Position numbers and translations under genes: made by a program. This document shows positions 1,477 through 31,580 of a DNA stretch of 49,000 bases, piece by piece. Source of the DNA: Bacteroidota bacterium (GTDB lineage Bacteria; Bacteroidota; Bacteroidia; Bacteroidales; VadinHA17); assembly GCA_011374625.1 (NCBI GenBank), contig DRPN01000031.1, positions 1-49,000 of the forward strand, written 5' to 3'. The notes under the pieces are model-generated. The model was not told the origin of the DNA. It ran no database searches and worked only from the letters and a program-made list of their open reading frames with translations. Positions within the stretch are counted from its first letter, which is position 1. Every line of letters starts with the position of its first letter.

Positions 1477-3930
1477 TTATTTATGAAAAAGGAAATGAAA
1501 GACCTTCCGTAACAATGACTTTTGAATATCTTCCTCTTCATAATAGCCCTGGCCATATCCGTAACTGTATCCATAACCGAAGTGATAACCGTACCCATAG
1601 CCATAACCATAACCGTAGCTGTATCCGTAGTAACTGGATAGTTTGATATCGTTAACCAATATACCCAGTTTTTTCAGTTTCTGTTTTTCATACAGGTCGT
1701 CGAGATAGGGAATAACATCCTTGCTGGAATAGTTTTGTCTGACCAGAAATAGGATCGTATCGGAATATGGAATCAATAGCAGCGTATCGGTGACGATAGC
1801 CAAAGGAGGTGTATCAACAATGATATAATCAAAATCTTTTTTAGCCTGTAAGAAAAAATCTTTTGTTCGCGGATTTTCCAACAATTCAGCGGGATTCGGA
1901 GGTATTATGCCGGAAGTAGCTATAAACAGGTTTTCAATATCCGTTTCACGGATTATTTCTTCATAGCTGTGTTGGTTAGCCAGGTAGGAGCTTATGCCGA
2001 TTTCATTGTTAAGCTGAAAATCACGATGTATCTTGGGTTTTCTTAGGTCGAAACTGGCGAGAAGGGTTTTCTTGCCAGACATGGCAATGATAACACCTAG
2101 GTTTTCGGCTGCAAAAGTTTTTCCTTCCCCACTGATTGTGGATGTAACCATAATGATCTTTTGGTTTTTTTCGTTCAGCTTGTACTGCAGATTGGTCCGT
2201 AAAGCCCGGAATGATTCTGCCATCGCTGACTTGGGGTGGGTAAGAACAGGGATATTATCTTCCGTTGTATTATGCCCGATGGTTCCAAGGATCGGTACCT
2301 GGGTTTTGGATTCTATGTCTTTTTTGTCAATAATCTTGTTGTTGAAATACTCAAGTAGTAACAGGATGGTCAAAGGGACGATAAAACCTAACACCAAAGC
2401 GATCATATAATTCAGTGAGGTTTTGGGTTTTACTTTGGTGGCATTTTCCGGTTGTGCAATATCCAGTATCTTGTTGTCAGACACATTGGAAGCTTTGGCA
2501 ATACCGGCTTCGGCCCTTTTCTCCAACAGGTAGGTGTATATCTGATTGGCTATGTTGTAAACCCGTTCAATGCCCAGCAATTGTCGTTCTTTTATGGGAA
2601 GCTTCTTGATCTGAACCGTCAGGACATCTATATTCTTATTAATATCATTTAAACTCAACTCGGTAGAATGGATCAGGCTTTTGACATTATCCACCAAAAG
2701 TTTACGTGTTTCATATATTTTTTGATTGATCAATCTCAGTCCTGGTGAATTGGGTTGGGTCGTTAATTGTAAATTGGTTTTCTGACTGTACAGTTCAATC
2801 AACTGCTGAATCAGAGAGATCAGTACCGGATCGGTGATGCCTGCCACACTCGGTGCTACCATATCACTGACATTGACCGATTTTTCAAGGAATTTCAAGA
2901 CGTATTGATAATAATTCTTCTGGATCTCCAAAACGGCTTTTTGTGATTGGAATTCACTGATTTTATCATAAATGGCCATACCTTCCTTGCTGATGTCAAT
3001 GATATCGTTTTTTATCCGGAAGTTTTCCAGATTTATTTCCGCTTTTCTGAGAGAATCAACGATATTCTTCAATTGCTCATCAATAAATTTGATGGTATTG
3101 GTGGCTATCCTGTTCTTTTCTTCCAACCCCGAACGAATATAAACCTCGCCCAGTTTATTTAGGTAATCACATTCCTGCTGGGCAACCTGTCCTTGCGTAG
3201 TCAGAATCAGAATAGATCCCTTTTTATCATTCACCGTGATGTTAAGCTTTCCCTTATATTGGTTGGTTAGGGCTTTGAGGTCATTGATGACAAAATAATA
3301 TTTGTTTGATAATTGTTCTTCGGGATCGAATGTTTCCGGGTTTCTGAGAAAGAGCCTAAAAGAAAAACTTTCATTAATGAATGGGTCCCCGTAATGCAAA
3401 ATAGTATCAATGTTCATCCCTTCGTCAATGGTCAGTCTATACTTATCTTTGGACATCAGGAAGACATTTACACGATGTCCTCTCATTTGTACATGGGAAG
3501 TATCAATCTCAACAACGAAAGGAGAGCGGTTGTAAAGGGGTGATTCTTTTATTCCTCTTCGTCCCACCAGCACATAAGTGATTTCGAAATCCTTAAGTTC
3601 GGAAAGAGTATTATAGGTAAGGGAGAAAGACTGCAGAATTCCCATTTCATTGTAAATATTTTTTTTGCTTCGGAAGATATCCATTCCTTCGATGAGATTT
3701 TCGTATCCGGACAATTGTCCTTTTCCTGCCTTTGTATCGTCCCGGACAATAATGGTGGAAGTGACACTGTATATCGGGTCGGCATACCGGTTTACAAGGT
3801 ATGCAATGGTCAGGGCAAAAAACATTGCAATTGCGAACCAATACCAGTTGTATAATATCTTAAAGAGGAATTTTTTAAGATCGATATTTTCTTCTTGTAT
3901 AAAAGGATATTCTGGAGGTGTCGTTTCCAT
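1477..3930 (-). CDS. Wzc-like polysaccharide co-polymerase with BY-kinase domain
   Basis: An 817-residue inner-membrane protein that in this family controls chain length and export of capsule or exopolysaccharide. An N-terminal Wzz domain follows membrane segment 1 (about residues 30-48). A long periplasmic coiled-coil region leads to membrane segment 2 (about 505-525). The cytoplasmic bacterial tyrosine kinase domain has Walker A SGEGKT near residue 600, Walker A' LLASFDLRKPKIH, and Walker B DYIIVDTPP. The C-terminus carries an extreme Tyr/Gly tail with 15 tyrosines, the expected autophosphorylation cluster. It starts 3 bases after wza stops, so the two are co-transcribed and probably form one trans-envelope complex. 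No matching low-molecular-weight tyrosine phosphatase or glycosyltransferase is present in the window. Confidence 0.92.
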   Translation of the reverse strand: METTPPEYPFIQEENIDLKKFLFKILYNWYWFAIAMFFALTIAYLVNRYADPIYSVTSTIIVRDDTKAGKGQLSGYENLIEGMDIFRSKKNIYNEMGILQSFSLTYNTLSELKDFEITYVLVGRRGIKESPLYNRSPFVVEIDTSHVQMRGHRVNVFLMSKDKYRLTIDEGMNIDTILHYGDPFINESFSFRLFLRNPETFDPEEQLSNKYYFVINDLKALTNQYKGKLNITVNDKKGSILILTTQGQVAQQECDYLNKLGEVYIRSGLEEKNRIATNTIKFIDEQLKNIVDSLRKAEINLENFRIKNDIIDISKEGMAIYDKISEFQSQKAVLEIQKNYYQYVLKFLEKSVNVSDMVAPSVAGITDPVLISLIQQLIELYSQKTNLQLTTQPNSPGLRLINQKIYETRKLLVDNVKSLIHSTELSLNDINKNIDVLTVQIKKLPIKERQLLGIERVYNIANQIYTYLLEKRAEAGIAKASNVSDNKILDIAQPENATKVKPKTSLNYMIALVLGFIVPLTILLLLEYFNNKIIDKKDIESKTQVPILGTIGHNTTEDNIPVLTHPKSAMAESFRALRTNLQYKLNEKNQKIIMVTSTISGEGKTFAAENLGVIIAMSGKKTLLASFDLRKPKIHRDFQLNNEIGISSYLANQHSYEEIIRETDIENLFIATSGIIPPNPAELLENPRTKDFFLQAKKDFDYIIVDTPPLAIVTDTLLLIPYSDTILFLVRQNYSSKDVIPYLDDLYEKQKLKKLGILVNDIKLSSYYGYSYGYGYGYGYGYHFGYGYSYGYGQGYYEEEDIQKSLLRKVFHFLFHK
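1549..1640 (-). repeat. Hexanucleotide coding repeat for Tyr-Gly tail
   Basis: Inside the 3' end of the wzc-like gene the DNA is a degenerate 6-bp repeat (plus-strand units such as ccataa, ccgtag, ccatag) that encodes alternating Tyr and Gly. Changes in unit number would stay in frame and alter the number of phosphorylatable tyrosines. Confidence 0.8.
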
Positions 3931-3933
3931 AAA

Positions 3934-4704
3934 TTATTTAATAAAAGATAATACAAGAATCAGTGTAGAGACACTGGAGAGGAGCAGACTGAAAATAGGG
4001 ATATTGATTCGGAATGGTTTACTTTTGATCGGTTCAACATAAACGATATCATTGGGTAAAAGAAAGAATGCATCGGAGGTGAGAAATTTGGAATTGGTCA
4101 GATCTATGCGGTAAACTGTAGATTTTGTCTCTCCCGGCCGTAATACCAACACCCGCTTCCTGTTTCCGTAATCGGTAATGTCGCCTGCACGGGATATGGC
4201 CTCCAATACCGTCAGTTGATTGTTGAAATTGGCATAAGTGCCGGGTTTATTTACTTCGCCCAGCACTGAGTATTTGAAACTGACCAGTTTTACATCTACA
4301 GTAGCATGTTTCAATACTTTATTGGTTTGTACCTGAATGGCATTCCTGGCCTCTTCCACAGTCAGACCGGCCACTTTTACATCCCCTATAAATGGCACGG
4401 TTACATATCCGGAGTCATTTACCGAATAACCATAAATGTAAAAACTCTGATCGTTATTAAAAAGATTCTGCTGGTTCTGACTCATATTGGGATTATAGAC
4501 CTGATTAATATCAGGGTCTATGCTCATGATCCGGATATACAAAATATCGCTCTTCTGGATCTTATAGTCGGGCGTACGTTGTTTAGAGACCTCCGGAGCT
4601 TTTAAAGTATCAACATCCTGAAGATAAATAAGCTGTTTTTGCGAAGTACAGGAAGAAAAAAATATAAAGATGATTACTACTCCTCCCCAAAAATACCTGG
4701 TCAT
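3934..4704 (-). CDS. Wza-like polysaccharide export lipoprotein
   Basis: A 256-residue outer-membrane lipoprotein. The signal peptide ends in a lipobox FSSC with the lipidated cysteine at residue 19. A Poly_export domain follows (PDYKIQKSDILYIRI, about residues 45-60), then an SLBB domain (SVLGEVNKPGTYANF, about 145-200). A hydrophobic C-terminal segment (IFSLLLSSVSTLILVL) is where Wza proteins insert their amphipathic outer-membrane helix. It is shorter than E. coli Wza, as is usual for Bacteroidota versions. In this family the protein forms the octameric exit channel for capsule or exopolysaccharide and docks onto a Wzc partner, here the next gene, 3 bases downstream. A complete Bacteroidota-type promoter lies just upstream. 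Confidence 0.92.
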   Translation of the reverse strand: MTRYFWGGVVIIFIFFSSCTSQKQLIYLQDVDTLKAPEVSKQRTPDYKIQKSDILYIRIMSIDPDINQVYNPNMSQNQQNLFNNDQSFYIYGYSVNDSGYVTVPFIGDVKVAGLTVEEARNAIQVQTNKVLKHATVDVKLVSFKYSVLGEVNKPGTYANFNNQLTVLEAISRAGDITDYGNRKRVLVLRPGETKSTVYRIDLTNSKFLTSDAFFLLPNDIVYVEPIKSKPFRINIPIFSLLLSSVSTLILVLSFIK

Positions 4705-4858: not shown

Positions 4859-5449
4859 ATGATTGTGCCATTTGATTTTTTTTCGGTTGAAAAAAAAGAT
4901 ACGATCCCGGGAAAAGGTAAGGTATTGATATCAGAACCTTTTCTGAGAGATGAGTATTTTAAAAGGTCGATCGTATTGTTGGCTGAATATGGCAACGAGG
5001 GGGCATTGGGATTTGTTTTGAACAAACCTGTAAATATGGCAGTCAGTAAGCTGGTAAAGGATTTTCCTGAAGCGGACATCCCTGTGTATTTGGGTGGTCC
5101 GGTATCCACCAATACACTTCATTACATTCATACGCTTGGGGATCTTCTTCCGGACAGTAAATCTATTTTTAGCGAAATATATTGGGGAGGGGATTTTGAA
5201 AGACTGAAGAAGCTTATCGAACAGGGAGTGGCAACCCGGAACAATTTGAGATTCTTTATCGGTTATTCCGGATGGGATGCCGGCCAGCTTGAGAGGGAAT
5301 TATCTGAGAATTCCTGGGTGATCGCCAAATTGAGGGTGAATCAGATTATGATGGGGAACGATCAGGAGATATGGAAAAAAGTCTTGCGTGACCTGGGAAA
5401 GAAATATAAGCTGTGGGCTGATTTTCCGGAAAACCCCGGATTAAATTAA
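4859..5449 (+). CDS. yqgE: YqgE/AlgH family protein
   Basis: A 196-residue cytoplasmic protein of the YqgE/AlgH (DUF179) family, whose biochemical role is not settled. Family hallmarks are present: GKVLISEPFL near the N-terminus, RSIVLLAEYGNEGALGFVLN, the VYLGGPV motif, and FFIGYSGWDAGQLERE. The ORF track starts at 4796, but that adds 21 residues without family resemblance and lies upstream of the likely transcription start. The ATG at 4859 is preceded by an AAAAAGG ribosome site and gives the normal family length. It is divergent from wza and overlaps the 3' end of the rhomboid gene by 9 bases in convergent orientation. Confidence 0.9.
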   Translation: MIVPFDFFSVEKKDTIPGKGKVLISEPFLRDEYFKRSIVLLAEYGNEGALGFVLNKPVNMAVSKLVKDFPEADIPVYLGGPVSTNTLHYIHTLGDLLPDSKSIFSEIYWGGDFERLKKLIEQGVATRNNLRFFIGYSGWDAGQLERELSENSWVIAKLRVNQIMMGNDQEIWKKVLRDLGKKYKLWADFPENPGLN

Positions 5450-6055
5450 GCCCATCTGTGCAAAAAATAACCGGATTAGGGCGGGATTCATCAGTACAGG
5501 ATAAAAGAAACCGAAAAGCGCGCCGGCAAAGTGTGCTTCGTGGTTGATGTTCTGATCGCTTTTTTTCGCCATGAACTGTGAATAGAGCAGGTACAGTATC
5601 CCGAAAACAATTGCAGGCATGGGGATGAAATAAAAATAGATCAGGCTTTTCGGTTGAAAGAAGATGCTGGTGAAAACAACTGCAGAAACTGCTCCAGATG
5701 CCCCGACCGAATTATACGAAACATTGTTTCTGTGTCTGAAAAGTGTAGGAATTGCGGAAAAAAGTATACCTCCGGCATATAAAATAAGAAAGTTGAGCAA
5801 CGGATATCGGATATAACCGTGTGTGCTAAGCTCTTTTAAGTATTTTTCATTGAAAATACCGAAAGAAAACAAAACAAACATGTTTACCCCGAGATGAACC
5901 CAGTCTGCATGAATGAATCCATGCGTAAATATTCGCCAATATTCCTTGTTTCTGAAAATAAAATAAGGATTCAGGGTAAGCTTGTAAAAAAGATCAGATT
6001 TGTTGAAAGCATATACCGAAACAATGGTCGTCAAAATAATTATAGCAATGGTCAT
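5441..6055 (-). CDS. Rhomboid family intramembrane serine protease
   Basis: A 204-residue polytopic protein with about six membrane segments. The rhomboid signature is complete: WRIFTHGFIHADWVHLGVN in loop 1/helix 2, the catalytic serine in GASGA (Ser120) and the helix-6 histidine in HEAHFAGALFG (His175). It should cleave transmembrane substrates within the inner membrane; its substrates are unknown. The ORF track extends to a GTG at 6106, overlapping holA by 41 bases. The ATG at 6055, which is 10 bases past the holA stop and directly before the first membrane helix, is the better start. It is the last gene of an amn-holA-rhomboid cluster. Confidence 0.9.
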   Translation of the reverse strand: MTIAIIILTTIVSVYAFNKSDLFYKLTLNPYFIFRNKEYWRIFTHGFIHADWVHLGVNMFVLFSFGIFNEKYLKELSTHGYIRYPLLNFLILYAGGILFSAIPTLFRHRNNVSYNSVGASGAVSAVVFTSIFFQPKSLIYFYFIPMPAIVFGILYLLYSQFMAKKSDQNINHEAHFAGALFGFFYPVLMNPALIRLFFAQMGLI

Positions 6056-6065
6056 GGAATCAGTG

Positions 6066-7076
6066 TTAGTGCAAAATTTTAAATACCAGTTCTTTGAGGA
6101 GATCACAGCTTGTAGCCGTGATATTTCCTATCCCTTTCGACCGTGCATCTGTTTCACGTAATAAGGAAATGATCTCTATTATTTTGTAATAAGTAAAACT
6201 TTGTGCTGCTTTTTCATAATCTTTCAGAAAGAACTCCTTGGTTTTCAGGATTTCGGCAATTTTGGTACGGGGAAGTTTTTTTACACTGAGATACGCCAGC
6301 AACTTGGAAAAGAAAAAGTATAAATAGGATACCGTTAGTTGGATGGGATGGTCTTTGCTGTTTTTGCAAAAGTAAAAAACGATCCGATTGGCTTTTAGAA
6401 CATCCCTGTTGATGATGGCTTTTTGCAGTTCAATATTGTTATAATCCTTGCTGAAACCTATATACTTTTCAATATGTTCGGGAGTGATCCGTTTTGTTCC
6501 TTCCGGTAGTGTAATGGCCAGCTTGTCCAACTCATTGACAATGTTGGACAACTCGTTACCAATATGTTCTGTAATAAGCAAAGCAGAATTATAATCCATG
6601 GAAAGGTTTTTCCGGGATGCATATGTTATGATCCAGTCCGGTATCTGATTATCGTATAATTTCTTTGATTCAAAATACAGGCATGTTTGGGTCTTGGAGA
6701 TAGCTTGATAAAACCTGGTCCTTTTATCCAGCTTTTTATATTTGTAATTCAGTACCAGGATAGTGGTAGGAGAAGGTTGTTTTATATAATCCGTAAGAGG
6801 GTCTGTTTTGTTGATTTCCTGGGCTTCCTTAACAATGACAACCTGACAGCTGGCCATCATGGGAAATCTTCTGGCTGTCTCTATGATCGTTAAAGGGTTG
6901 CTGTCTTTCCCGTAAAATATTTGCAGGTTAAAAGCTTTCTCATCCTCTGAGAGAACGTTCTTTTCAATATAATCGGAGATTATATCAATATAATAAGGTT
7001 CCTCTCCGCAAAGAAAATAAACGGGATAGAGTTTTCCTTTTTTAATATCTTCTATGATCTGAGTGGCTGATGACAT
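6066..7076 (-). CDS. holA: DNA polymerase III subunit delta
   Basis: A 336-residue protein matching HolA, the clamp-loader wrench that opens the beta sliding clamp during chromosome replication. The N-terminal region has the typical YPVYFLCGEEPYYIDIISDYI and a degenerate P-loop fold without a true Walker motif. FPMMASCQVVIVKEAQ lies near residue 85, and the helical C-terminal collar domain covers about residues 215-330. The length is normal (E. coli 343). It lies 18 bases downstream of amn and probably shares its transcript. Low sequence conservation is usual for this subunit. Confidence 0.88.
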   Translation of the reverse strand: MSSATQIIEDIKKGKLYPVYFLCGEEPYYIDIISDYIEKNVLSEDEKAFNLQIFYGKDSNPLTIIETARRFPMMASCQVVIVKEAQEINKTDPLTDYIKQPSPTTILVLNYKYKKLDKRTRFYQAISKTQTCLYFESKKLYDNQIPDWIITYASRKNLSMDYNSALLITEHIGNELSNIVNELDKLAITLPEGTKRITPEHIEKYIGFSKDYNNIELQKAIINRDVLKANRIVFYFCKNSKDHPIQLTVSYLYFFFSKLLAYLSVKKLPRTKIAEILKTKEFFLKDYEKAAQSFTYYKIIEIISLLRETDARSKGIGNITATSCDLLKELVFKILH

Positions 7077-8475: not shown

Positions 8476-9014
8476 AAGATCAGCTCATCCTCCCATGTTT
8501 GTGCTTTTCTCAGCCAGTCTATCTTGCGGCCGGTTTCGATAAAACCTTTCGATTGGAATAAACGGATGCTTTGAATATTTCCGGCCGGAATATTGCAATA
8601 AACCTGGTGCAACAGTAATACGGAGAAACAGTATTCGATAATAACATCCAGGGACTGGCCTGCATAACCTTTCTTTCTTTCTTCTTCTTCTTTGATCAGA
8701 ATCCCGACGCCAACCCTCATGTTCTGTGGGTCAAAATCGAAAAGATCTATGGTTCCGATGGTTTTGACAGTCGGATCGGGGGCAACAGGTTTTCGGTCTA
8801 TCATAAAGCGGACCTGACCCAATTGGAATATATCGAGATGGGAATTTTCAATATATTGTTTCAGTACGAAACGGGAGATAGGGGTCAGGGTATTGCTGAC
8901 CGTCCATATCTCAGGGTCATTTTCCCATTTGTAAAGCAACTCGAGATCTTCCGGTTCCAAAGCACGGAGAAGGATCTGATCGTTTTCCAATCGAAAGTTG
9001 TTTTCGTGTTTCAT
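8439..9014 (-). CDS. GNAT family N-acetyltransferase (RimJ/SpeG-like)
   Basis: A 191-residue cytoplasmic acetyltransferase. The N-terminus ILLRALEPEDLELLYKWEND is typical of the RimJ/RimL/SpeG branch. The acetyl-CoA-binding motif A is RKKGYAGQSLDVIIEYCF (about residues 114-131), followed by NIQSIRLFQSKGF (motif B). The acceptor could be a protein N-terminus, a polyamine or a small amine and cannot be told from sequence. Its ATG overlaps the stop of the upstream PD40/SPOR gene in an ATGA arrangement, so translation is probably coupled to that gene. It therefore belongs to the PD40 gene block. Confidence 0.85.
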   Translation of the reverse strand: MKHENNFRLENDQILLRALEPEDLELLYKWENDPEIWTVSNTLTPISRFVLKQYIENSHLDIFQLGQVRFMIDRKPVAPDPTVKTIGTIDLFDFDPQNMRVGVGILIKEEEERKKGYAGQSLDVIIEYCFSVLLLHQVYCNIPAGNIQSIRLFQSKGFIETGRKIDWLRKAQTWEDELIFQLIKSPSEMVL

Positions 9015-10963
9015 CCTGCAGGTTTATCTTCGGAATCATTATATACTTTCTTTACGAAAACGTCCAGGTATCCTTTTTTCAATATTCTTTTCTTGACCTT
9101 TTCCGCTTCTTTCAGGGTTTTAAACTGACCAACCGTGTACCGGTAGAAAGCGTCTTTTCCATGGAGGATAACCACTCCCTGGAGATTTTTGAAATAGGAA
9201 ACATCAACAGGGTTCAGGAGAGCCATCACCTGAACGGTATAATACAAGACTTTTCGTCCTTGTTTATCAACGTAATCCGGATTCTTAATCATTACATTGG
9301 TTACAACCTTAAAGGTATCTGAGGTAGTAGTATCAGATCTTTGTACCCGTTGCTTTTCAGGTGTCCAGGAGGTGTCTTTGGCCAGATTGATGTTGCGGAC
9401 TATTTTCAGAGAAGGAGCTTCTTTCGTAATTACCAAAGTATCCTGAAAAGAAAGAATGCCTTTTCCGTTACAGTCAATCCGGTAAGTACCGGCCGGAATA
9501 TGGAAATAATACCAGCCGCTGTTGTAAGCAGGCACTCCGATATCTGTAGTATCCAGTGAGTTAATGTCAATGATTCGAATCCTGACATTGGAGTTAAGCA
9601 AAGGGTTGATAGAGTCATTGACACGTACGATTCCCATGACATCGAAAAGAGGACTTTCTTCAGCTTTCCCCAAAAAATCCAGACGGAAAATATTCATTTT
9701 CTTATAACCGTTCAGCAGGGAGATATAACCGGATTTTCCATTTCTGTATGGTTGGAAAAAGAAATCTTCGTCAGTGGTGCTGACGGGATAACCGATATTG
9801 TCCGGTTTTTTCCATCTGTCACCTTTGCGTTTCGAAACAAAAATATCATAGCCTCCCATATTGAAATGACCTTCGGACGAAAAGAACAACAGGGAATCAT
9901 TCATGGAAATAAAAGGGCTGTTTTCGTTATATTTTGTATTTATCACCGGACCGAGGTTTTTTGCCGAACCCCAATCACCTCCTTTTTCGCGATGGGATAC
10001 GTAAATGTCTAATTTCCCAAAGCCTCCTTCACGGTTGCTCGTAAAATACAATGTTGTCCCGTCTTTGCTGATAGAAGCATGGGATTCATAAAATTTCGTA
10101 TTGATATTCTTATTCAGTTTTTTGATCTTTGACCACTGGTTTCCATCAAAAGTGGATATGTAAATGTTTCCGACAAAGTTGTCTATTTTGTAAAGGTAGA
10201 GTTCAGTTCCGTCGTAATTCAGGCAGGAGGTGGAACAATCTTTCTCTGAACCTATTTCTGTAGTAATATCCACAGGGACCATCCATTGCCCATGTATTCT
10301 CTTTGTATAATAGACAACCATATCTTCCCCGAAATGGGCAGTGAAAGCCAGTGTGTTTCCATCTCCTGAGATCACAGGGTTCAGGTTGACAGAAGAAATA
10401 TTGATAGTATCTCCCAGATTGGTTTTCCTAATTTTCAGAGGATTTCCCATTAGTTTTTCTGCATTTTTGCAGGCAAGGATCTGCTGGTCCACAAAGTCTT
10501 CATTGACCATTTTGTTTTCAGAGGATAACTGTTTTTTGAAATATTTATATTTTTCGATGGCTTTATCCAGTTGATTGTTAATACGGTAGGCATTGCCCAG
10601 TTGAAAGAACACATCCAGTGGGGCCCTGGATTCTGAAAATTGATCTTCTTTGGCGTCATAACTGGCATTCCGGGAGGCTTTTTCGAGGTAAGGGATGGCT
10701 TTGTCTTTCTCATACGGGGTATTCAGGTAACAAACCCCGATCTTATACGCAATATTGGCATTGTCCGGCATGCTTTCATAAAGGATCAGGTATAAAGGAG
10801 TTGCCAGTTCATATTCTCCATAAAGAAAATGAGACTCTGCCTGAACAAAGAAATCTTTTAACTCCGATTTACTCTGTGCTCCAAGGGGACTTGAGGTCTC
10901 ATTCATAATAAGAAGCAACATTGCAAAGAAGAAAACTCTGGATAACACATAATAATGTTTCAT
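9011..10963 (-). CDS. TPR-PD40 periplasmic protein with SPOR-like C-terminus
   Basis: A 650-residue exported protein, fifth in the order of transcription of the tandem PD40 family. A signal peptide (about 30 residues, ending near PLGAQ) is followed by TPR helices (about 35-160; AYKIGVCYLNTPYEKDKAI and LGNAYRINNQLDKAIEKY). A PD40 beta-propeller (about 185-415) has blades such as TLYFTSNREGGFGKLDIY and NMGGYDIFVSKRKGDRW. A carboxypeptidase-regulatory-like beta domain lies at about 440-520 (AGTYRIDCNGKG). Residues from about 570 to 640 resemble a SPOR domain (YYTVQVMALL, YRYTVGQFKTLKEAEKVK), a fold that binds denuded peptidoglycan. The gene is translationally coupled to a GNAT gene. Function is unknown; a wall-associated scaffold or sensor is my inference. 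Confidence 0.85.
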   Translation of the reverse strand: MKHYYVLSRVFFFAMLLLIMNETSSPLGAQSKSELKDFFVQAESHFLYGEYELATPLYLILYESMPDNANIAYKIGVCYLNTPYEKDKAIPYLEKASRNASYDAKEDQFSESRAPLDVFFQLGNAYRINNQLDKAIEKYKYFKKQLSSENKMVNEDFVDQQILACKNAEKLMGNPLKIRKTNLGDTINISSVNLNPVISGDGNTLAFTAHFGEDMVVYYTKRIHGQWMVPVDITTEIGSEKDCSTSCLNYDGTELYLYKIDNFVGNIYISTFDGNQWSKIKKLNKNINTKFYESHASISKDGTTLYFTSNREGGFGKLDIYVSHREKGGDWGSAKNLGPVINTKYNENSPFISMNDSLLFFSSEGHFNMGGYDIFVSKRKGDRWKKPDNIGYPVSTTDEDFFFQPYRNGKSGYISLLNGYKKMNIFRLDFLGKAEESPLFDVMGIVRVNDSINPLLNSNVRIRIIDINSLDTTDIGVPAYNSGWYYFHIPAGTYRIDCNGKGILSFQDTLVITKEAPSLKIVRNINLAKDTSWTPEKQRVQRSDTTTSDTFKVVTNVMIKNPDYVDKQGRKVLYYTVQVMALLNPVDVSYFKNLQGVVILHGKDAFYRYTVGQFKTLKEAEKVKKRILKKGYLDVFVKKVYNDSEDKPAG

Positions 10964-11015
10964 AAGCTTGAGATTTTAACCGGATGATATATACAAACCG
11001 TCTCCCACCATCATT

Positions 11016-12506
11016 TTACTTGGAATCATCGTCGGGTTTATATTCGTATAAGTAATTACCAGAATAAGAATAGTATCTGAATGTTTTTGTTCTGGGATCA
11101 TATATCACTCTGATTGCAATATCTCCCGTTCCTTTATCTTTGATAAGAATCTCAAAACCTTTGTCCCAGTCGACATTCAAGCCATGCATATCTATCTTGC
11201 CTTCGAATATACTAAATTGATTTTTTTTAGACGGCAGGATTTCGATTCTGTAAATATCTTTTTTCCCATATCCTTCAGGGGTTATTCTGGAAAGATAACC
11301 AGCCAAACCGTTCCTGACGGGGAAAAAGTAATTATTGTCGCGGGTTGTATTTATAGGAAATCCTATATTGGCGGGAGTGTTCCAGCCGTTGTTCTTCTTT
11401 TCGGAATAAAATATGTCATATCCGCCCATGTTGTAATGTCCTTCCGAGACAAAATAAATTCGTTTCTTGTCATCGGAAAGATAAGGCGCATCCTCATTAA
11501 AAGGGGTATTTATGGTTTTTCCCATGTTCTCGGGAGGACCCCATTCTCCGGAAGAAGAAAGACGGGACAGGTAGATGTCGAGTTTCCCATATCCTCCCCG
11601 CCGGTTGCTGGAGAAAAACAATGTTTTGTTATCGGGAGAGAGACTGGCATGGGCTTCCGCCCTACCTGAATTTATCTGATCGCTGAGTCTGATCATTTTG
11701 GTCCACATGCCATCTTTCCATTTGCTAATGTAAATATCCCTGTCATTACCTCTCCCTTTGATCAGGTATAGTGTCTTTTTATCAGCAGAGATATCTGAAG
11801 GATAAGCATCTCCATCGGATTCTACCTGGGGTGTGATGTTGATGGGTACTGTCCATTTTCCTCCTTCACGGCGTGACATGAAAATAGCATTGTAGAATTT
11901 TAGTTCGGTCATAAAGAAAATCGTGCTTTCGTCTCTCGATAATACAGGATAATAGTTATTGGTTCCTGTGTTGATGGGCTGGCCTAGATTATGTTCCTCA
12001 ATTTGTACGGGTATGTCCTGAATGATCTTGGCCTTTTCACAGGCCTTGATCTCATTATCCACAATATTTCGATTGTATTTATCATCAAAATCAGGCAGGG
12101 ACTTGAATTTTTGATAGGTTTCAAGGGCTTTGTCCAGTTCGTTGTTCATCCGATAAGCATTTCCAAGATAAAACAATGCATGCTCGGGAGCTTTTGTTTC
12201 TTTTGGGGATCTTTTTTTATACTTGGGGTTTATATCTTTTATGGCCTTCTCGAGGTACGGAATTGCCTTGGTTTCCTCTCCGAGGGTGTGGATGTAACAG
12301 TATCCGATCTTGTAATACAAATTTGCATTTTCGTATTTGGTACCAATGAGTTTCAAATAATCAAACAAGGCTTCCTGGTAATCTTCTCTAAAAAAGAAAT
12401 AATTTCCGTCATTGTAAAGAGTTTCCGGATCGATTTTCTCCTGAGCTTTGACAACAGAAAAAAAACCAGCAATAATAATGAATAGTAAACCTGACAGAAA
12501 TTTCAT
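11016..12506 (-). CDS. TPR-PD40 periplasmic protein without C-terminal anchor
   Basis: A 496-residue paralogue in the tandem PD40 family and the shortest member. It has a signal peptide (MKFLSGLLFIIIAGFFSVVKA, about 21 residues), TPR helices (YYKIGYCYIHT, LGNAYRMNNELDKALETY), and PD40 blades (TLFFSSNRRGGYGKLDIY, NMGGYDIFYSEKKNNGW). After the propeller there is only a short beta-rich tail ending in DDDSK, with no OmpA, SPOR or membrane segment. It should therefore be a soluble periplasmic protein. I see no frameshift: the frame runs cleanly to its stop 52 bases before the next gene. It may act as a soluble partner of its anchored paralogues (inference). Confidence 0.83.
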   Translation of the reverse strand: MKFLSGLLFIIIAGFFSVVKAQEKIDPETLYNDGNYFFFREDYQEALFDYLKLIGTKYENANLYYKIGYCYIHTLGEETKAIPYLEKAIKDINPKYKKRSPKETKAPEHALFYLGNAYRMNNELDKALETYQKFKSLPDFDDKYNRNIVDNEIKACEKAKIIQDIPVQIEEHNLGQPINTGTNNYYPVLSRDESTIFFMTELKFYNAIFMSRREGGKWTVPINITPQVESDGDAYPSDISADKKTLYLIKGRGNDRDIYISKWKDGMWTKMIRLSDQINSGRAEAHASLSPDNKTLFFSSNRRGGYGKLDIYLSRLSSSGEWGPPENMGKTINTPFNEDAPYLSDDKKRIYFVSEGHYNMGGYDIFYSEKKNNGWNTPANIGFPINTTRDNNYFFPVRNGLAGYLSRITPEGYGKKDIYRIEILPSKKNQFSIFEGKIDMHGLNVDWDKGFEILIKDKGTGDIAIRVIYDPRTKTFRYYSYSGNYLYEYKPDDDSK

Positions 12507-12584
12507 GGATGGTTTATTTAGTCGAATTTAAAAAATTAATGTAAAAATACTAATAATATCTGATAAAATATTTTTCTTCCCGCG

Positions 12585-12609
12585 AAACAATTGGTCAAGC
12601 AAATTGTTT
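12585..12609 (-). terminator. Hairpin immediately after a PD40-OmpA stop codon
   Basis: An 8-bp perfect inverted repeat, AAACAATT and AATTGTTT with a 9-base loop, begins directly after the stop codon at 12610. No clean T-run follows on the minus strand. It may be an attenuator or an mRNA-end stabiliser rather than a full terminator. Confidence 0.35.
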
Positions 12610-14598
12610 TTATTTTTTAATGAGCAACTCGGGAGGAATATTATATTTTACCTGAATCTGGTCTGCCGTGTTTCCTTTCATGCTAAATTCTACACGCCTG
12701 TTAAAGTGTCTGCCTGTAGGGTTGTCTGTACCGTCGGGGTTTTTATTGATGGTAACAGGCCTGCTCTCACCGTATCCGATGACAACAAGACGCGATGATG
12801 ATACCCCTCTCGAAACAAGGTGATTCTTAACGGAATTGGCCCTTTTCAGCGATAGTTTCCGGTTGTATGAGCAAGAACCGATGGCATCTGTATGACCTTC
12901 AATAGAAACCTGAACATTTGGGAGTACTTTGAGAATGTCAGCCATCTTATCCAACTTTAACCTGGCTGAAGAGGTAAGTGTGAATTTATTAAAATCAAAG
13001 TATACAGGAGAAATAATATACATCTCCTTATTTACTCTTTGTTCCGGAGCTGTATATGTCAATGGGATTTCCAGATTCTTTACCCGGTCTTCTTTTTGCA
13101 GGACTATCATCCTGGAATAAGGAGTGATTCCTTTTCCGTTCACGGTGATCCGGTAGGTACCGGCAGGGAGTTTTGTGTAAAATGTTCCGTCCTTGGAAAT
13201 ATAAGGTGTCAAAGTAGTAACTTTCCCGGTGATATCTTTAATATTTATTTTAATATCAGCGGGAAGAATCTGGTTGGGAGGCAGAATGAGGTTGCCGGAG
13301 AGAGCAACCGGCCGGGGGTGTTCAGGTGAGAAAAATTCGACAGAAGCTATGTAGGATTTTATTTCTTTTTCAATGAACCGGCGAGTAATATATCCTTTGA
13401 ATCCATGGTCCAGCGGACTAAAATAAAGATCGTCATCTGTAGTATTGAGAGGATAACCAAGGTTGACAGGTTCCTGCCAGGCTCCGTTTTCATATTTGCT
13501 GACAAAAACGTCAAAACCACCCATGCCGGGGTGGCCGTTAGAGCTGAAAAACAATTTTTTTCCGTCGGGAGTAAGAATCGCTGATTGTTCATCATAAGGC
13601 GTATTAATGGGACCGGGCAAAGGTTCGATGTTGTCCCATTTCCTTTCGGAAGATAGGGTAGCCGTGAAGATATCCAGAGATCCCGGACCACCACTGCGAT
13701 CGCTGACAAAATAAAGGATGTGACCATCAGGAGACAAGGATGCAAAAACCTCATTATGCAAAGAATTGACTTTTCCTTCAAGGGGTACGGCTTTTCCCCA
13801 TCTGTTACCTTCATGCCTGCTGATGAAAATATCCTTTTGACTTTTTCGGGGGACTGTCAGAAAAAGAATTGTCCCGTCATAATTCAGTGAAGATACCTCA
13901 TAGAAACCATCAGATTCAATGTCCATGGTGATATTTTTCGGATTGGTCCATGCTCCGTTTTCATATTTTGTAAAATAAACGGCATGGTAATATTTGGTAT
14001 CCACCATGAATACCATTTTCCCTCCGTTACCTGATATGGCCGGGTGATATACCATACGTCCCATTTTAAAAAGTTCGGGAAAAACAAACTCGACATCTCC
14101 CGGGTTATTCATCATTTTCCTGGCCGTTTCACAGCTCCTGATCCATCGTTCTACCAGGTTCTTGCTTTGTTTTTTTCGAAGCATCTTTTTATAACTGGTA
14201 TAAGCTGCCAATGCCTTATTCAATTCGTTGTTTATCTGGTAAGCCCTGCCAAGAAACAATATGGCTTCCAAAGGAGCACGGGTTTCCTGGAATAATTCTT
14301 TCTTGTATTTTCTGGATACATTCTGTGATGCTTTCTCCAGATATGGGATGGCTTTTATCTTTTCTCCCGGAATGTGAAGATAGGATATTCCCGTCAGATA
14401 TTGAATATTACTGTTATCCGGATACTTTTCTGCCAGCTTGAGGTATAAGGACAATGCTTTTTCATGCTTGTGATAAAGGCTCAGCAGATTGGCATTGTAA
14501 AAAATCTTTTCATCATCAATGATTTCCTGTGCATAAAGCGAGTTTCCTATTAATAATAAACTCCATATGATCTTGGTGAAAACCCCATTTTTTACCAT
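12610..14598 (-). CDS. TPR-PD40-OmpA periplasmic protein (PorE-like architecture)
   Basis: A 662-residue exported protein. A signal peptide (about 25 residues, ending LYAQ) is followed by TPR helices (about 30-150), a PD40 propeller (about 185-400; ILYFVSDRSGGPGSLDIF, GMGGFDVFVSKYENGAW), a regulatory-like beta domain (about 425-500) and an OmpA C-terminal domain (about 535-645). The OmpA domain has YFDFNKFTL, IEGHTDAIGS and NRKLSLKRANSVKNHL, the usual peptidoglycan-binding features. The order TPR, propeller, CRD, OmpA equals that of PorE of the type IX secretion system, but the signal peptide has no lipobox cysteine and no other secretion genes are near. The ORF track begins at a TTG; the in-frame ATG three codons later (14598) is the better start. 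Confidence 0.87.
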   Translation of the reverse strand: MVKNGVFTKIIWSLLLIGNSLYAQEIIDDEKIFYNANLLSLYHKHEKALSLYLKLAEKYPDNSNIQYLTGISYLHIPGEKIKAIPYLEKASQNVSRKYKKELFQETRAPLEAILFLGRAYQINNELNKALAAYTSYKKMLRKKQSKNLVERWIRSCETARKMMNNPGDVEFVFPELFKMGRMVYHPAISGNGGKMVFMVDTKYYHAVYFTKYENGAWTNPKNITMDIESDGFYEVSSLNYDGTILFLTVPRKSQKDIFISRHEGNRWGKAVPLEGKVNSLHNEVFASLSPDGHILYFVSDRSGGPGSLDIFTATLSSERKWDNIEPLPGPINTPYDEQSAILTPDGKKLFFSSNGHPGMGGFDVFVSKYENGAWQEPVNLGYPLNTTDDDLYFSPLDHGFKGYITRRFIEKEIKSYIASVEFFSPEHPRPVALSGNLILPPNQILPADIKINIKDITGKVTTLTPYISKDGTFYTKLPAGTYRITVNGKGITPYSRMIVLQKEDRVKNLEIPLTYTAPEQRVNKEMYIISPVYFDFNKFTLTSSARLKLDKMADILKVLPNVQVSIEGHTDAIGSCSYNRKLSLKRANSVKNHLVSRGVSSSRLVVIGYGESRPVTINKNPDGTDNPTGRHFNRRVEFSMKGNTADQIQVKYNIPPELLIKK

Positions 14599-14647
14599 GA
14601 CACACAATTAAAATCCCGGATTCGTTTCGTAAGTGAAAGAATTACTT

Positions 14648-16642
14648 TTATTTAATCTTCAATTGATCCGGAACATTAATAGGTGCAGGTTTTATGGTAT
14701 TTACCGGAGACTTGACAACAGTTATTTCAACCCTCCTGTTAAGGGCACGTCCTTCGGGACAATCCCTGCCGTCCGGATAATGGTTGATAGCAATAAAATT
14801 TGTTTCTCCGGCACCTTTCAGGTTGTATCTGGCAGATGAAATCCCCGCTTTTTTCAGAACATTTGCCACAGCACGTGCCCTTCTCATGGACAGTCTGCGG
14901 TTGTAACCTGCAGTTCCTTTAGAATCAGCGTAACCGGTAATATTAATCACAAGTTCCGGATAATCTTTCATAATATTAGCGAGCCGGTTGACTTTACCCC
15001 TTTCCTTGTCAGAAAGACTGGCTTTGTCAAAATTAAAAAATATTACCGGGAGGTATTCGGCTTTTACAATTGGCACTGGTTCAAGCGTTACATCTTCACT
15101 GATACAGGAGACTGAATAATCTTCAGGTATAGAAATTTCCTTTCGGTTTTGTTGATAACTATTGGCTTGCAATGTTAAAACATAATTTCCTTTCGGAAGC
15201 CTTGCCGAAATATTATATTTTTCTGAAGGCGCAATGGAAGTTTCTTTTATAATCTCACCTGTTTTTTTGTTCCTGAGTACAATAAGAATAGGATTATTAT
15301 AGGTTTCGGGTTTGTTTTTCAGATGAACGGTTCCTGTGAGTTGTATGGGCCTGGGGTTAATATCAGAGTAAAATTCAACACGGAAAATATCTTTGTTTCC
15401 AATGCTTTTAACCGGGTCAAACATCGAGTAATACCCATAAACTTCGGCAATTATGGGTACAAAGAAGAGATCATCGTCAGTTGAATTAATCGGATAACCA
15501 ACATTTCGGGGTTTGGACCATGTTCCGTTCTTTTGCAACTCAGAGTAGAAAATATCAAAGTTCCCCATGCTGTTATGCCCCTGCGAGCTGAAATAAAGAG
15601 TTTTTCCGTCTTTTGACAAAAACGGAGTTTCTTCATTGAACTCTGTATTTATGGTAGATCCCAGATTGTTGGCAGGTCCCCATTCTCCGACTTTCTCATC
15701 AAAATGTGAGGTGTAAATGTCCAGTCCCCCATAACCTCCTTTACGGTTACTTGTGAAATAGAGAGTCTTGCCGTCAGGAGATAGAGTAGCACTCGATTCC
15801 CAGTATTTGGTATTAATATTTTTTCCGAGTTTCTCGGCTTTGGTCCATTGACCGTCTTTCAAATGGCTCACCCAGATATCACTGTTGAAACGGTCATTTC
15901 TGGACATGAAAAGGGTTTTCCCATCAAAAGAGATACCGGCAGGATACAGATCTCCGTCCGATTGAATTTCAGGGGTTATATTTCTGGGAGTGCTCCATCC
16001 AGTATTGGACTTTCGTGTATAAAATACGGCATCATAGAATTTAAGCCTGGTAACATATACCAACGTTGATTCATCTCCTGAAACGACAGGGTCAAAATTG
16101 GCACCGGTGTTATTGATATTCTTTCCGACATTTTCCAAACTGACAGCTACAGGATGAGCCATAAAATTACGAGCCCTTTCAATGGCAGCAATCTCTTGTT
16201 TAACAAAATCATAGTCCAGAGTATCTGTAGGATCCACATATTTCAAATATTTTTCAAAATAAGTTTTGGCATCTTCAAAGCGGTATTGAAGTAAATATGC
16301 TGTACCCAGAAAGAAGAAAGCGTCCTGGGGAGCTTTGTTTTCTTTTACATTTCCTTCTTTATACTTATCCGTCGTTTTCTTAACCGCTTTTTCCAGATAT
16401 GGGATTGCCTTTTCTTTCTGTCCTGGGATATTCAGGTAACAGATACCCATTCGGTAGTTAATATTGGCGTTTTCAGGGTCAACCTTGTAAACTTTTTTGT
16501 ATCCCTCCAGGGCATCCGGATAGGATTCCAGAGCCAGGAAATATTCCCCATCCATGAAAGCTCTCTTAACCTCCTTGGAATATTGGGAATATGCCGAAAG
16601 CAATGAAAACAGAAAAAGGGTAAGTACGATAACTCTTTTCAT
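14648..16642 (-). CDS. TPR-PD40-OmpA periplasmic protein, second copy
   Basis: A 664-residue paralogue of the next gene downstream with the same domain order. A signal peptide (about 19 residues, ending AYSQ) precedes TPR helices (NYRMGICYLNIPGQKEKAI), PD40 blades (TLYFTSNRKGGYGGLDIY and SMGNFDIFYSELQKNGTW), a regulatory-like beta domain (LPKGNYVLTLQANSYQQN) and an OmpA domain with FFNFDKASLSD, ITGYADSKGTAGYNRRLSM and a NRRVEITVV end. It should bind peptidoglycan in the periplasm. A PorE-like role in type IX secretion is possible, but two near-identical architectures side by side point rather to a diversified family. It is 49 bases upstream of its paralogue, and a -7 box lies just before it. 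Confidence 0.87.
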   Translation of the reverse strand: MKRVIVLTLFLFSLLSAYSQYSKEVKRAFMDGEYFLALESYPDALEGYKKVYKVDPENANINYRMGICYLNIPGQKEKAIPYLEKAVKKTTDKYKEGNVKENKAPQDAFFFLGTAYLLQYRFEDAKTYFEKYLKYVDPTDTLDYDFVKQEIAAIERARNFMAHPVAVSLENVGKNINNTGANFDPVVSGDESTLVYVTRLKFYDAVFYTRKSNTGWSTPRNITPEIQSDGDLYPAGISFDGKTLFMSRNDRFNSDIWVSHLKDGQWTKAEKLGKNINTKYWESSATLSPDGKTLYFTSNRKGGYGGLDIYTSHFDEKVGEWGPANNLGSTINTEFNEETPFLSKDGKTLYFSSQGHNSMGNFDIFYSELQKNGTWSKPRNVGYPINSTDDDLFFVPIIAEVYGYYSMFDPVKSIGNKDIFRVEFYSDINPRPIQLTGTVHLKNKPETYNNPILIVLRNKKTGEIIKETSIAPSEKYNISARLPKGNYVLTLQANSYQQNRKEISIPEDYSVSCISEDVTLEPVPIVKAEYLPVIFFNFDKASLSDKERGKVNRLANIMKDYPELVINITGYADSKGTAGYNRRLSMRRARAVANVLKKAGISSARYNLKGAGETNFIAINHYPDGRDCPEGRALNRRVEITVVKSPVNTIKPAPINVPDQLKIK

Positions 16643-16667
16643 TGTATATGAAATTTTCTCATTTTAA

Positions 16668-16675
16668 CAAATTTA
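16668..16675 (-). promoter_or_regulatory. -7 box before a PD40-OmpA gene (TAAATTTG)
   Basis: Perfect TAnnTTTG on the minus strand in the 108-base gap between the first and second PD40 genes; no TTTG at -33. The gene start at 16642 would be about 18 bases downstream of transcription start. It suggests that the array has at least one internal promoter. Confidence 0.4.
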
Positions 16676-16750
16676 GAAATAAAATTGTAAAAAAGATATA
16701 AATGATTAAAAATCTTTTGAAAAATCCTGTATCAGTCTCAACTTTTCTTT

Positions 16751-19636
16751 TTACATTTTCTTTTTCTTCACGAGCAGGTATCCTGTAACAACTCCTGCCA
16801 ATACCAGAGGTATGATCCAGTAAAGATAATTGGGTTTTCCCCCCGTGAGTATATCTCCGTGGCTCATTAATTCTCTTACTTTGTCTTCGTCAATATTGGA
16901 AGAAATAATAATACGGGTAAGCGTTTTCAAAATATCGTTTTCCGTGTAATGGTATTGTGAGGCATGATTTATCAAATAATCCAAAAGATCTTTGATCTTA
17001 TTGATCTTGTTGAATTTTAAATCTATGTTGATTAAAAGATCATGCAAGGTTCCGGTAGATTTATCAATGAGTTTCCTGAGGAAATTATTTACATCAGGAT
17101 CTCCGTTGGAGGCAATCCGGGCAAACAGATAGATAAGATTTATCGTGGAATAGCCCAGTAATTCGGATTTGTCAATCAGAAAGTTGGTCAGTTCCCAGGC
17201 AGAGTATATCTCATTTTTTTCAGGATTTGCCTGATTTACGGCCTTCTTAATGTTTCCACTTGAGAGATCAAGTAAATGCTGATACATATACCAGAGGTTC
17301 TTGTCTTTTTCTGTAGCCATAGACACGACCAAATGTTTGAGTTCAGTACTATCAATAATGCCCGAATCAGCTGTTTCCTTGAGGTATTTCATAAGTTGTT
17401 CCGGAGTATAAATATTGGATTTGGCCAGGTCAAGGCCTGTAAGGAATGCTTTTAGTGAACCGGCGGCGTTTGTGACAAGACTGTGGTAAATGTCTTCAAG
17501 TTTTTCCGGATTGCGTGTGGCTGCGATTAAGAGTAATTGATCCACATCCTCAGGAGTGTAACTTGAAACGATTGCTTTTTTCTTCAAATAATCAATGATC
17601 TCGAACTGATCTATAAAATTCATGGCTTCCGGATCTATCCCCTGTATCTCGACCAGTAAACTCCCTGTGGCATAATGTTTCAGGATGTCCAGAAAGTTAT
17701 TCATTTCCTGAAGCCGGGCAGGCGTTATATTAAGCTTGGGTAACTCATGTACAGGTTTCTTTTCTGCCGTAGTAACTTCCGGTGGTGTGGGAACAGGAAC
17801 ATTCAGATAAATCTCTTTTTGTGCAGTATTTCCAAAATGGTCGGTTAGGTTTAATACCACGGTGCTTCTTCCGGCAGGAGGAAGAATAGGAAATATGAGG
17901 GAATCGTTCATAACAAAGTATCCTATGGAGTCAACCAGCACGGAATCCTGATAGAGTCGCATGGTTAACCAGGATCCCTTTTCCGTGCTTAGAATAAGGT
18001 TCAGTGTGTCCCCGGCATTTATAGTAAAAGAAGGGTTTAGAATATCAAGGTTGGCTGTCTGATCTTCAAGTTGAAGAATGGCCGGTGGCATGCATACCAC
18101 TTCCTTGTTAAGACTTATCGGCATGGAGAGCTGAGAGACCTGCGTCTTTATTCCTTCTCCGCTGATGGCCAAGTTATATTTCCCTGCAACGGTCTCAAAT
18201 TGGTAATGTAAAGTTGTATCCGGATTGATACTCTTAAGTGTATCCATCATATTCTCACTTAACAGCCTGACAAATAGTTTATTATTATCCGGTTTAATGG
18301 GGATGTTTTTTGTACTTATTGTTCCTTGAATCAAGAACTTACGTGGGTGCTCCGCCGAAAAGATTTCAATCTTGAATATATCCATGTTTCCCATCCCTTT
18401 GGTTGAGAATTTTGAAATGTATGCATAATATCCTTTTCCTACAGGGTGATAAAACAGATCGTCATCGGTGGTATTGATGGGGTAACCCATGTTTAGCGGG
18501 ACCGACCATTCTCCGTTGTCAAGAAGATTGGAATAAAAGATATCGTATCCTCCCATATTGTAATGCCCGTATGAACTGAAGAATAAAGTTTTTCCATCAG
18601 CAGTAATGAAGGGTGTTTCCTCGTTGTATTTAGTGTTGATAATTGGTCCGAGATTAACTGCAGAACCCCACTCTCCCGTACTGTCGAGCTTGGAAATATA
18701 TATATCCAGCCCGCCGTAACCGCCTTTCCTGTTACTGGTAAAATACAAAGTCTTGCCATCTTTGGTTACGCAGGCATGTGATTCCCAGTATTTGGTATTG
18801 ATGTGATCGTTCAGCCGTATTACGCGCGACCATTGTCCTTCTTTATATTTGCTGATGTATATATTCCCGTCATATTGGTCGTTTTTGTAGAGATAGAGTG
18901 TCTTTCCGTCAAATGAAAGGGAAGAAGAATAAAAATCCTGATCAATGCCAAGCTCCGGAGTCAGATTGATGGGGGGTGACCAGGTGCCGTTTTCCTTATG
19001 TGTGTAAAAAACCGCATCATAAAAAGGAAGTTTCCGGGTGAAAACCAGCGTTTTCTGATCTCCTGAAATAACAGGCCTGTAATCCGAAAAACGACTGTTA
19101 ATCGGTTTCCCAATATCCTTTTCAGAAAGGTACAATGGGGTGCTTTCAAGTTTCTTGGCAACATTGCATGTTTTGATCTGGTCATCTACAAGTTGTACGT
19201 CATAAATTTTGGGATTCAAATGATCTTTAAAATACTGATACATCTCCAGTGCCTTATCCAGTTTGTTATTTACCCGGTAAGCATTGCCAAGATAAAAATA
19301 GGCATCCAATGGAGCATGCGTTTCACGTATTGAGTTCTCTCTGTATTTGGGAGTTATGTCGGTTATAGCTTTCTCAAGGTAGTTAATGGCCTTGTCCTTT
19401 TGGCCAGGAATGTTCAGGTAGCAGATCCCTATGCGATAATTCAGGTTATTGTTGTCAGGAAATAAATCATGTAATTCCAAATAATAAGGTAGCGCATCAC
19501 TGTATTCTTCAAAAAGGAAAAAAGAGTTTCCTTCGATAAATTTCTTTTTGATATCCGCTTTGCTAAGTTTTTGCGAATAGCCTGGAAAAACCAAGAAAAA
19601 ATATAATAATAGCACTAAAACCTGATTCCTTCGCAT
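16751..19636 (-). CDS. TPR-PD40 protein with four 68-residue repeats and a C-terminal membrane anchor
   Basis: A 961-residue protein, first and largest of the tandem PD40 family. A signal peptide (ends near PGYSQ) is followed by TPR helices (about 25-150) and a PD40 propeller (about 180-410; TLYFTSNRKGGYGGLDIY, NMGGYDIFYSNLLDNGEW). Two beta-rich segments follow (about 425-625). Residues 642-913 consist of four gapless 68-residue helical repeats that I do not recognise. A membrane segment (YLYWIIPLVLAGVVTGYLL, about 935-953) and a KKKKM tail end the protein. This gives a type I topology with nearly all the mass in the periplasm, anchored in the inner membrane. A minus-strand box TACTTTCG (19660-19653), one base from consensus, could be its -7 element. 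Function is unknown. Confidence 0.85.
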   Translation of the reverse strand: MRRNQVLVLLLYFFLVFPGYSQKLSKADIKKKFIEGNSFFLFEEYSDALPYYLELHDLFPDNNNLNYRIGICYLNIPGQKDKAINYLEKAITDITPKYRENSIRETHAPLDAYFYLGNAYRVNNKLDKALEMYQYFKDHLNPKIYDVQLVDDQIKTCNVAKKLESTPLYLSEKDIGKPINSRFSDYRPVISGDQKTLVFTRKLPFYDAVFYTHKENGTWSPPINLTPELGIDQDFYSSSLSFDGKTLYLYKNDQYDGNIYISKYKEGQWSRVIRLNDHINTKYWESHACVTKDGKTLYFTSNRKGGYGGLDIYISKLDSTGEWGSAVNLGPIINTKYNEETPFITADGKTLFFSSYGHYNMGGYDIFYSNLLDNGEWSVPLNMGYPINTTDDDLFYHPVGKGYYAYISKFSTKGMGNMDIFKIEIFSAEHPRKFLIQGTISTKNIPIKPDNNKLFVRLLSENMMDTLKSINPDTTLHYQFETVAGKYNLAISGEGIKTQVSQLSMPISLNKEVVCMPPAILQLEDQTANLDILNPSFTINAGDTLNLILSTEKGSWLTMRLYQDSVLVDSIGYFVMNDSLIFPILPPAGRSTVVLNLTDHFGNTAQKEIYLNVPVPTPPEVTTAEKKPVHELPKLNITPARLQEMNNFLDILKHYATGSLLVEIQGIDPEAMNFIDQFEIIDYLKKKAIVSSYTPEDVDQLLLIAATRNPEKLEDIYHSLVTNAAGSLKAFLTGLDLAKSNIYTPEQLMKYLKETADSGIIDSTELKHLVVSMATEKDKNLWYMYQHLLDLSSGNIKKAVNQANPEKNEIYSAWELTNFLIDKSELLGYSTINLIYLFARIASNGDPDVNNFLRKLIDKSTGTLHDLLINIDLKFNKINKIKDLLDYLINHASQYHYTENDILKTLTRIIISSNIDEDKVRELMSHGDILTGGKPNYLYWIIPLVLAGVVTGYLLVKKKKM
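16898..17713 (-). repeat. Four tandem 68-codon repeats
   Basis: Residues 642-913 of the 961-residue PD40 protein align as four consecutive 68-residue units without any gap. Invariant positions are Leu11, Gly17 and Leu43, and position 27 is Asp, Asp, Asn, Asp. Each unit appears to form about four short helices. DNA identity between units is low, so the duplication is old. Confidence 0.8.
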
Positions 19637-30728: not shown

Positions 30729-31580
30729 CTATCTCAATATCACCTTATCTATATGCCCGGTGTCTTTCTCCAACGAAGACAATTCTTTTTGCATGCCTGT
30801 AAAAAAATTTGAAACATAGGTTGTTTTTTTGTGTTTCAGAATCTCGGGGATGATCCGTTCCGGGTTTTCCCGGGGGATACGGATGTGTTGTTCAAAGACT
30901 TCGATGACTTCCTTGGCGCCGGGGTCTTTCTCCTGCAGATTCACAAAAAAGTTATGGGTGATCAGGTATCTCTTTTTCTGCTTACGGAGGATGTCAGGCC
31001 AGGGGGCCAGACGTGTTTCCATAGTCCGGAATCTGTGATCTAGGTTGGGAAGTACCCGCTCAGGCAGTTGGCTGGCAGTTATATTTCGTAAGATATATAT
31101 CTCGTAGTATCTGAAAACCCCGATGAATCCGAAAGCATCCATATCATCAGCCAGGGAAAGAAGGGAGAGTATTATTCCTTCATCTGATGCCAATGAGGGT
31201 GGGGAAGAATAGTTTTTGTCATCATGCTTTTCTATAGCTTTCAGGATAGTATGGGTTAGTGCTGGAGGGTAAGAGGTCCGGCTGAAAAACATTTCAGCCA
31301 GCCGTCGGCTGGCATGGCCATGTGTAAAATCAATCGTCTCTGACATGCCTGTGTCGTGTAGCATGACAGCCAGCAGGATGCCCTCAACCTGGTCACGGCT
31401 GAGCGGTTGGATAATCTTGTGGTAACCGGGAATCAGCCCTCTCGCAAAATGCCAGGCACGCAAATGATGGGTCTCATCATGTGACGGCAAATAAACAGTT
31501 GAAAAACATTTACGGCAAAAACCAAAAACCTCCCCGAGCCGCTTGTGTTCAGCTGCATCAATGGTTTTCCGGATATTCAT
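30729..31580 (-). CDS. HD domain phosphohydrolase-like protein
   Basis: A 283-residue cytoplasmic protein with an HD-type metal-dependent hydrolase domain. The metal ligands are visible as His38/His39 in THHLRAWHFARG, His75-Asp76 in MLHDTG, and a further Asp in LADDMDAFG (about residues 160-168). HD domains hydrolyse phosphate esters of nucleotides or cyclic nucleotides; no GYP signature or second domain narrows the substrate. A 10-bp hairpin lies 11 bases before its ATG. Confidence 0.8.
   Translation of the reverse strand: MNIRKTIDAAEHKRLGEVFGFCRKCFSTVYLPSHDETHHLRAWHFARGLIPGYHKIIQPLSRDQVEGILLAVMLHDTGMSETIDFTHGHASRRLAEMFFSRTSYPPALTHTILKAIEKHDDKNYSSPPSLASDEGIILSLLSLADDMDAFGFIGVFRYYEIYILRNITASQLPERVLPNLDHRFRTMETRLAPWPDILRKQKKRYLITHNFFVNLQEKDPGAKEVIEVFEQHIRIPRENPERIIPEILKHKKTTYVSNFFTGMQKELSSLEKDTGHIDKVILR

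Follow-up and report, generated by a model that had tools for sequence, protein, structure and literature searches.

Our analysis of the window (the whole 49,000-nucleotide stretch of Bacteroidota DNA under study) brings to light a helical repeat unit of 68 residues, present in four copies in a predicted 961-residue protein and absent from the families and solved structures that we searched (Pfam, NCBIfam, PHROGs and the PDB). The reading that we favour, with a probability of about 0.55, is that this uncatalogued and lineage-restricted repeat forms a periplasmic stalk that is anchored in the inner membrane and adjustable in length, and that would present a head resembling that of the type IX secretion protein PorE. 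The features of the gene and of its neighbourhood are collected in Table 1; the limits of the propeller were inferred from the PD40 matches together with the match to the PorE model.

Table 1. Features of the repeat gene and of the adjoining cluster in the window
Feature	Residues	Position	Strand	Content or support
Whole gene	961 aa	16751..19636	-	signal peptide, TPR, PD40 propeller, beta region, four 68-residue units, C-terminal membrane helix
TPR region	about 42-134	19235..19513	-	Pfam TPR_2, TPR_6
PD40 beta-propeller	about 165-430	18347..19144	-	Pfam PD40 4.1e-19; partial NF052230 and NF053607 matches
Probable beta domains	about 431-628	17753..18346	-	contains family signature EHPRKF
Repeat unit 1	642-709	17510..17713	-	self-alignment, AlphaFold
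Repeat unit 2	710-777	17306..17509	-	self-alignment, AlphaFold
Repeat unit 3	778-845	17102..17305	-	self-alignment, AlphaFold (array and two-unit job)
Repeat unit 4	846-913	16898..17101	-	self-alignment, AlphaFold (array and two-unit job)
Capping helix past unit 4	917-925	16862..16888	-	AlphaFold
C-terminal hydrophobic helix and basic tail	938-961	16754..16825	-	AlphaFold; tail survey of homologues
TPR-PD40-OmpA paralogue, candidate partner		14648..16642	-	Pfam OmpA 1.2e-18; adjoins gene in most relatives
Second PD40-OmpA paralogue, candidate partner		12610..14607	-	Pfam; neighbourhood comparison
TPR-PD40 paralogue	496 aa	11016..12506	-	Pfam; neighbourhood comparison
PD40 paralogue, SPOR-like C-terminus		9011..10963	-	SPOR 20.0 bits, cut-off 21

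The preliminary description had divided residues 642-913 (17713-16898 on the minus strand) into four gapless units of 68 residues, and both the placement and the division hold. In an ungapped self-scan over lengths 40 to 73, the best unit length was 68, about 17 SD above shuffles: the four-unit sum-of-pairs score was +235, as against -125 +/- 21 (maximum -39) in 2000 shuffles of residues 642-913, and every other length among those listed (60-75) scored below -280. Leu11, Gly17 and Leu43 are indeed invariant in all four units, while position 27 reads D/D/N/D and position 33 F/I/I/I from unit 1 to unit 4, again as first described. Iterated collection from relatives gave 231 distinct units that fall into one profile, the strongest columns of which are L11 (77%), G17 (63%), L19 (79%), L23 (66%), D/N27 (80%), I/L/F33 (92%), L39 (74%), Y42 (67%) and L/I43 (95%). 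The conserved hydrophobic columns of this profile are 11, 19, 23, 33, 39, 43, 57 and 61, those at 27, 35, 38, 53 and 56 resemble helix caps, and the remaining positions are highly variable.

The predicted structure agrees with this picture. Residues 630-961, for which a prediction had been proposed as a check, were modelled by AlphaFold with 30 homologues (mean pLDDT 87.5, pTM 0.75), and a regular array of four units was obtained. Each of the four units is predicted to hold four helices, where about four had been supposed from the letters, at positions about 2/4-14, 17-25, 36-49 and 54-66; no strands were assigned by DSSP in the repeat models. When units 3-4 were modelled alone in a separate job, the helices were unchanged (pLDDT 91.7, pTM 0.86). 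Beyond unit 4, the model has an extra capping helix and then the C-terminal helix (938-960), so that the array follows the head and precedes a membrane anchor at the C-terminus, where it was first placed; the survey of homologous tails agrees.

The repeat has a narrow distribution. The region was found in 37 of 99 related genomes, mostly from the window's own family, and the signature of the beta region retrieved 39 loci in public genomes, all of them metagenome assemblies, with titles naming Bacteroidota, Bacteroidetes, Bacteroidia or Bacteroidales and, in one case, Chlorobiota. The single-unit profile matches 25 of 295 genomes of the order (17 of 184 genera) and a single genome of 396 from the phylum, which is the window's own, never in more than one open frame of a genome; a four-unit profile returned identical counts (25/295 and 1/396). 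A search for the unit outside this gene, covering the rest of the window genome and the order and phylum samples, gave nothing beyond chance-level scores (E >= 0.196). Because the profile matches in both samples fall only in this gene, the unit is, at this sensitivity, confined to a single gene family, which occurs in part of one order (according to the record titles, Bacteroidales). With about 230 distinct recognisable copies and no counterpart in the families and folds searched, it merits cataloguing.

Within this gene family the number of units varies widely. Most orthologues carry four, and the others form a series of none (L097, L101), one (L060, L061), two (L053, L063, L095, L133), three (L135-L137), five (L044, L127, L130), six (L126, L132) and about 12 units (L059, L124, L128, L129), every array lying between a constant TPR-propeller-beta head and the C-terminal hydrophobic helix. 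The longest proteins (L059:1851-6275, L124, L128, L129) have about 1475-1494 residues and come from at least three separate genera; their length leaves room for about 12 units, some inner ones of which have diverged beyond what the profile recognises. In many proteins of four-unit length the profile likewise misses a strongly diverged third unit, and the spacing is preserved. The distance from the first unit to the membrane helix, divided by 68, clusters near an integer plus about 0.3 (R=0.59, p about 3e-5 for 30 representatives, from rounded values and with a statistic that ignores phylogeny). The clustering is also seen without the four-unit class (R=0.46, p about 0.014, again from rounded values and ignoring phylogeny), and some proteins lie off the main phase, at 2.6-2.7, 5.9 and 11.9-12.0 units. 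The length between head and membrane thus tends to step by whole units.

Comparison of the units themselves gives some insight into the history of the array. Units at the same position in different proteins share 33% identity, as against 22% for units at different positions and 22% for pairs within one protein, which argues that the four-unit array is older than these lineages. Some longer arrays also show later internal duplication, with best pairs at 47% in L044 and 50% in L059. Among close relatives, 33 positions are invariant in unit 1 and 30 in unit 3, as compared to 15 in unit 2, so that some units are more conserved than a pure spacer would require. This conservation hints at the main rival of the stalk reading, namely that the repeats are a scaffold for binding partners or ligands, like TPR or armadillo arrays, and that copy number follows changing partners rather than reach. 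The 33% versus 22% identity is on the same side, since it implies that the positions have kept their own character. Nevertheless, we regard a partner-binding array as unlikely, as the conserved columns of the 231-unit profile are hydrophobic or cap-like and the others highly variable, and as head and anchor are the same whether a protein has no unit or about 12.

The preliminary description knew no family with this unit, and our searches of Pfam, NCBIfam, PHROGs, PDB sequences and PDB folds likewise gave no strong match to a known domain. The window array had no match in Pfam or PHROGs and chance-level matches only in NCBIfam; against PDB sequences, the single-unit and four-unit profiles gave weak and mutually inconsistent matches only. 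With Foldseek, the best PDB match was at E=0.88 for the four-unit model and at E=2.8 for the two-unit model (probability <= 0.08 for both, threshold E < 0.001), and a viral structure library yielded nothing. The window array matched no Pfam profile of TPR or other helical repeats, and a set of 109 units gave scattered, non-significant matches; literature searches did not find a description of this repeat. Among the individual matches, those to kinesin (profile against PDB sequences), to EAD8 (among the 109 units) and to the designed helical repeat protein THR6, which reached E=0.00078 by summing per-domain scores of 1-7 bits, were rejected as chance or composition.

Alternatively, the unit could belong to a known helical family (an EF-hand pair, an annexin, a clamp-loader lid or other) and have diverged so far that the present profiles miss it. 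A calmodulin lobe and an annexin repeat have the same length as the unit. Calmodulins recur weakly among the PDB sequences (E=0.046 and 0.07) and EF-hand_7 in 2 of the 109 units (best E=0.024), while the clamp-loader lids AAA_assoc_2 and Rep_fac_C recur at E 0.007-0.013, with a clamp loader in the Foldseek list at E 4.2. The unit length, and two entries for annexin A2 among the Foldseek matches (E 5.5-6.3, TM <= 0.15), led us to consider annexin, which we rejected. However, none of these matches is significant; we set aside those to calmodulin and to the lids as chance or composition, the acidic ligand pattern of the EF-hand loop is absent from the 231-unit profile, and the fold searches against the PDB came no closer than reported above. 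We therefore consider such an origin improbable.

As for the topology, a C-terminal hydrophobic helix is present in 65 of 65 homologues, and the tail that follows it is basic (median net charge +4). A lipobox is missing from all homologues but one, and a simple pattern found none in the first 40 residues of the 961-residue protein. The hydrophobicity and charge of this end suggest, by the positive-inside rule, anchoring in the inner membrane with the bulk of the protein in the periplasm. That the helix is instead a sorting signal which a protease cleaves off, the protein working at the outer membrane or on the cell surface, seems very improbable. The tails do weakly resemble LPXTG, Loki-CTERM and GG_III-CTERM signals, the window tail has a GG, and close to the conserved cluster there is a rhomboid protease (5441-6106) that weakly matches rhombosortase. 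However, the resemblance to sorting signals is generic as well as weak, relatives do not conserve the GG in their tails, and the rhombosortase match, at 39.7 bits, is well short of the cut-off of 84.

The N-terminal part of the protein has TPR_2, TPR_6 and PD40 matches above the Pfam cut-offs. Judged by its model scores, the head is closest to the CHU_0125 family (NF053607, 157 bits over residues 32-443, cut-off 620) and to PorE (NF052230, 138.1 bits over residues 28-397 only, cut-off 600), far below the cut-offs of both. The protein has no Pfam match for an OmpA domain, and its neighbours at 14648 and 12610 have one. A bona fide PorE is encoded at another locus of the genome (C60, 757 bits). 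Further PorE-like paralogues are found on other contigs.

The gene is the first of five consecutive PD40 genes on the same strand (9011-19636), and this cluster is kept in relatives. In the window and in most of them, the order is the repeat gene, one or two TPR-PD40-OmpA genes, TPR-PD40, PD40-SPOR and a GNAT acetyltransferase, followed by AMP nucleosidase, holA and a rhomboid gene; in L135-L137 and L139, another PD40 paralogue stands before the repeat gene. The paralogues ending in OmpA or SPOR are natural candidate partners of the repeat protein. The repeat gene also draws attention to this group of PorE-like paralogues, which is uncharacterised and exists besides the PorE of the known secretion system. 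Elsewhere in the window, a Wzc-like tyrosine autokinase adjoins a Poly_export/SLBB polysaccharide export protein (1477-4704), and a 283-aa open reading frame without a Pfam match at E 1e-8 lies between M14 carboxypeptidase and NfeD genes (30729-31580, minus strand).

Under the stalk reading, the course of events would be that Sec exports the protein, that the C-terminal helix holds it in the inner membrane with the tail in the cytoplasm, and that the array extends as a rigid or semi-rigid periplasmic stalk, the length of which would be set by gain and loss of whole units. On this stalk, the PorE-like head would reach partners located at the outer membrane or the peptidoglycan, and the likeliest of these are the PD40 paralogues with OmpA or SPOR ends that are encoded alongside. 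A bolder proposal, which we advance tentatively and hold to be possible rather than probable, is that a previously undescribed alpha-helical repeat fold arose in Bacteroidales and serves as a molecular ruler, the number of units setting the periplasmic reach of the scaffold and lineages tuning the spacing of their envelope in this way. With 0-12 copies set between an unchanging head and an unchanging anchor, the ruler idea can be tested directly for periplasmic proteins.

The TPR, armadillo/HEAT, pentatricopeptide and annexin arrays are likewise built of tandem all-helical units of near-constant length, and in TPR-like arrays copy number also varies; unlike these, the 68-residue array has four short helices per unit, a profile of its own and no significant match to them in sequence or fold. 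PorE of Porphyromonas gingivalis (PG1058) is a periplasmic scaffold of the type IX secretion system, for which it is essential, and an outer-membrane lipoprotein made up of TPR, propeller, CRD and OmpA domains, the OmpA-like domain having been crystallised with a peptidoglycan fragment (PMC5053529, PMC7192894). The protein described here shares with it the order of TPR, PD40 propeller and further domains; the key distinction is that it has neither OmpA domain nor lipobox and instead carries the 68-residue repeats, followed by a hydrophobic helix at the C-terminus. TPR and PD40 are equally combined in the CHU_0125 family of OmpA-like outer membrane integrity proteins (PMC5891637), the OmpA end of which is lacking in our protein. 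What is apparently new is thus a helical repeat with a natural series of copy numbers, probably serving as a spacer on a known type of scaffold in uncultured organisms.
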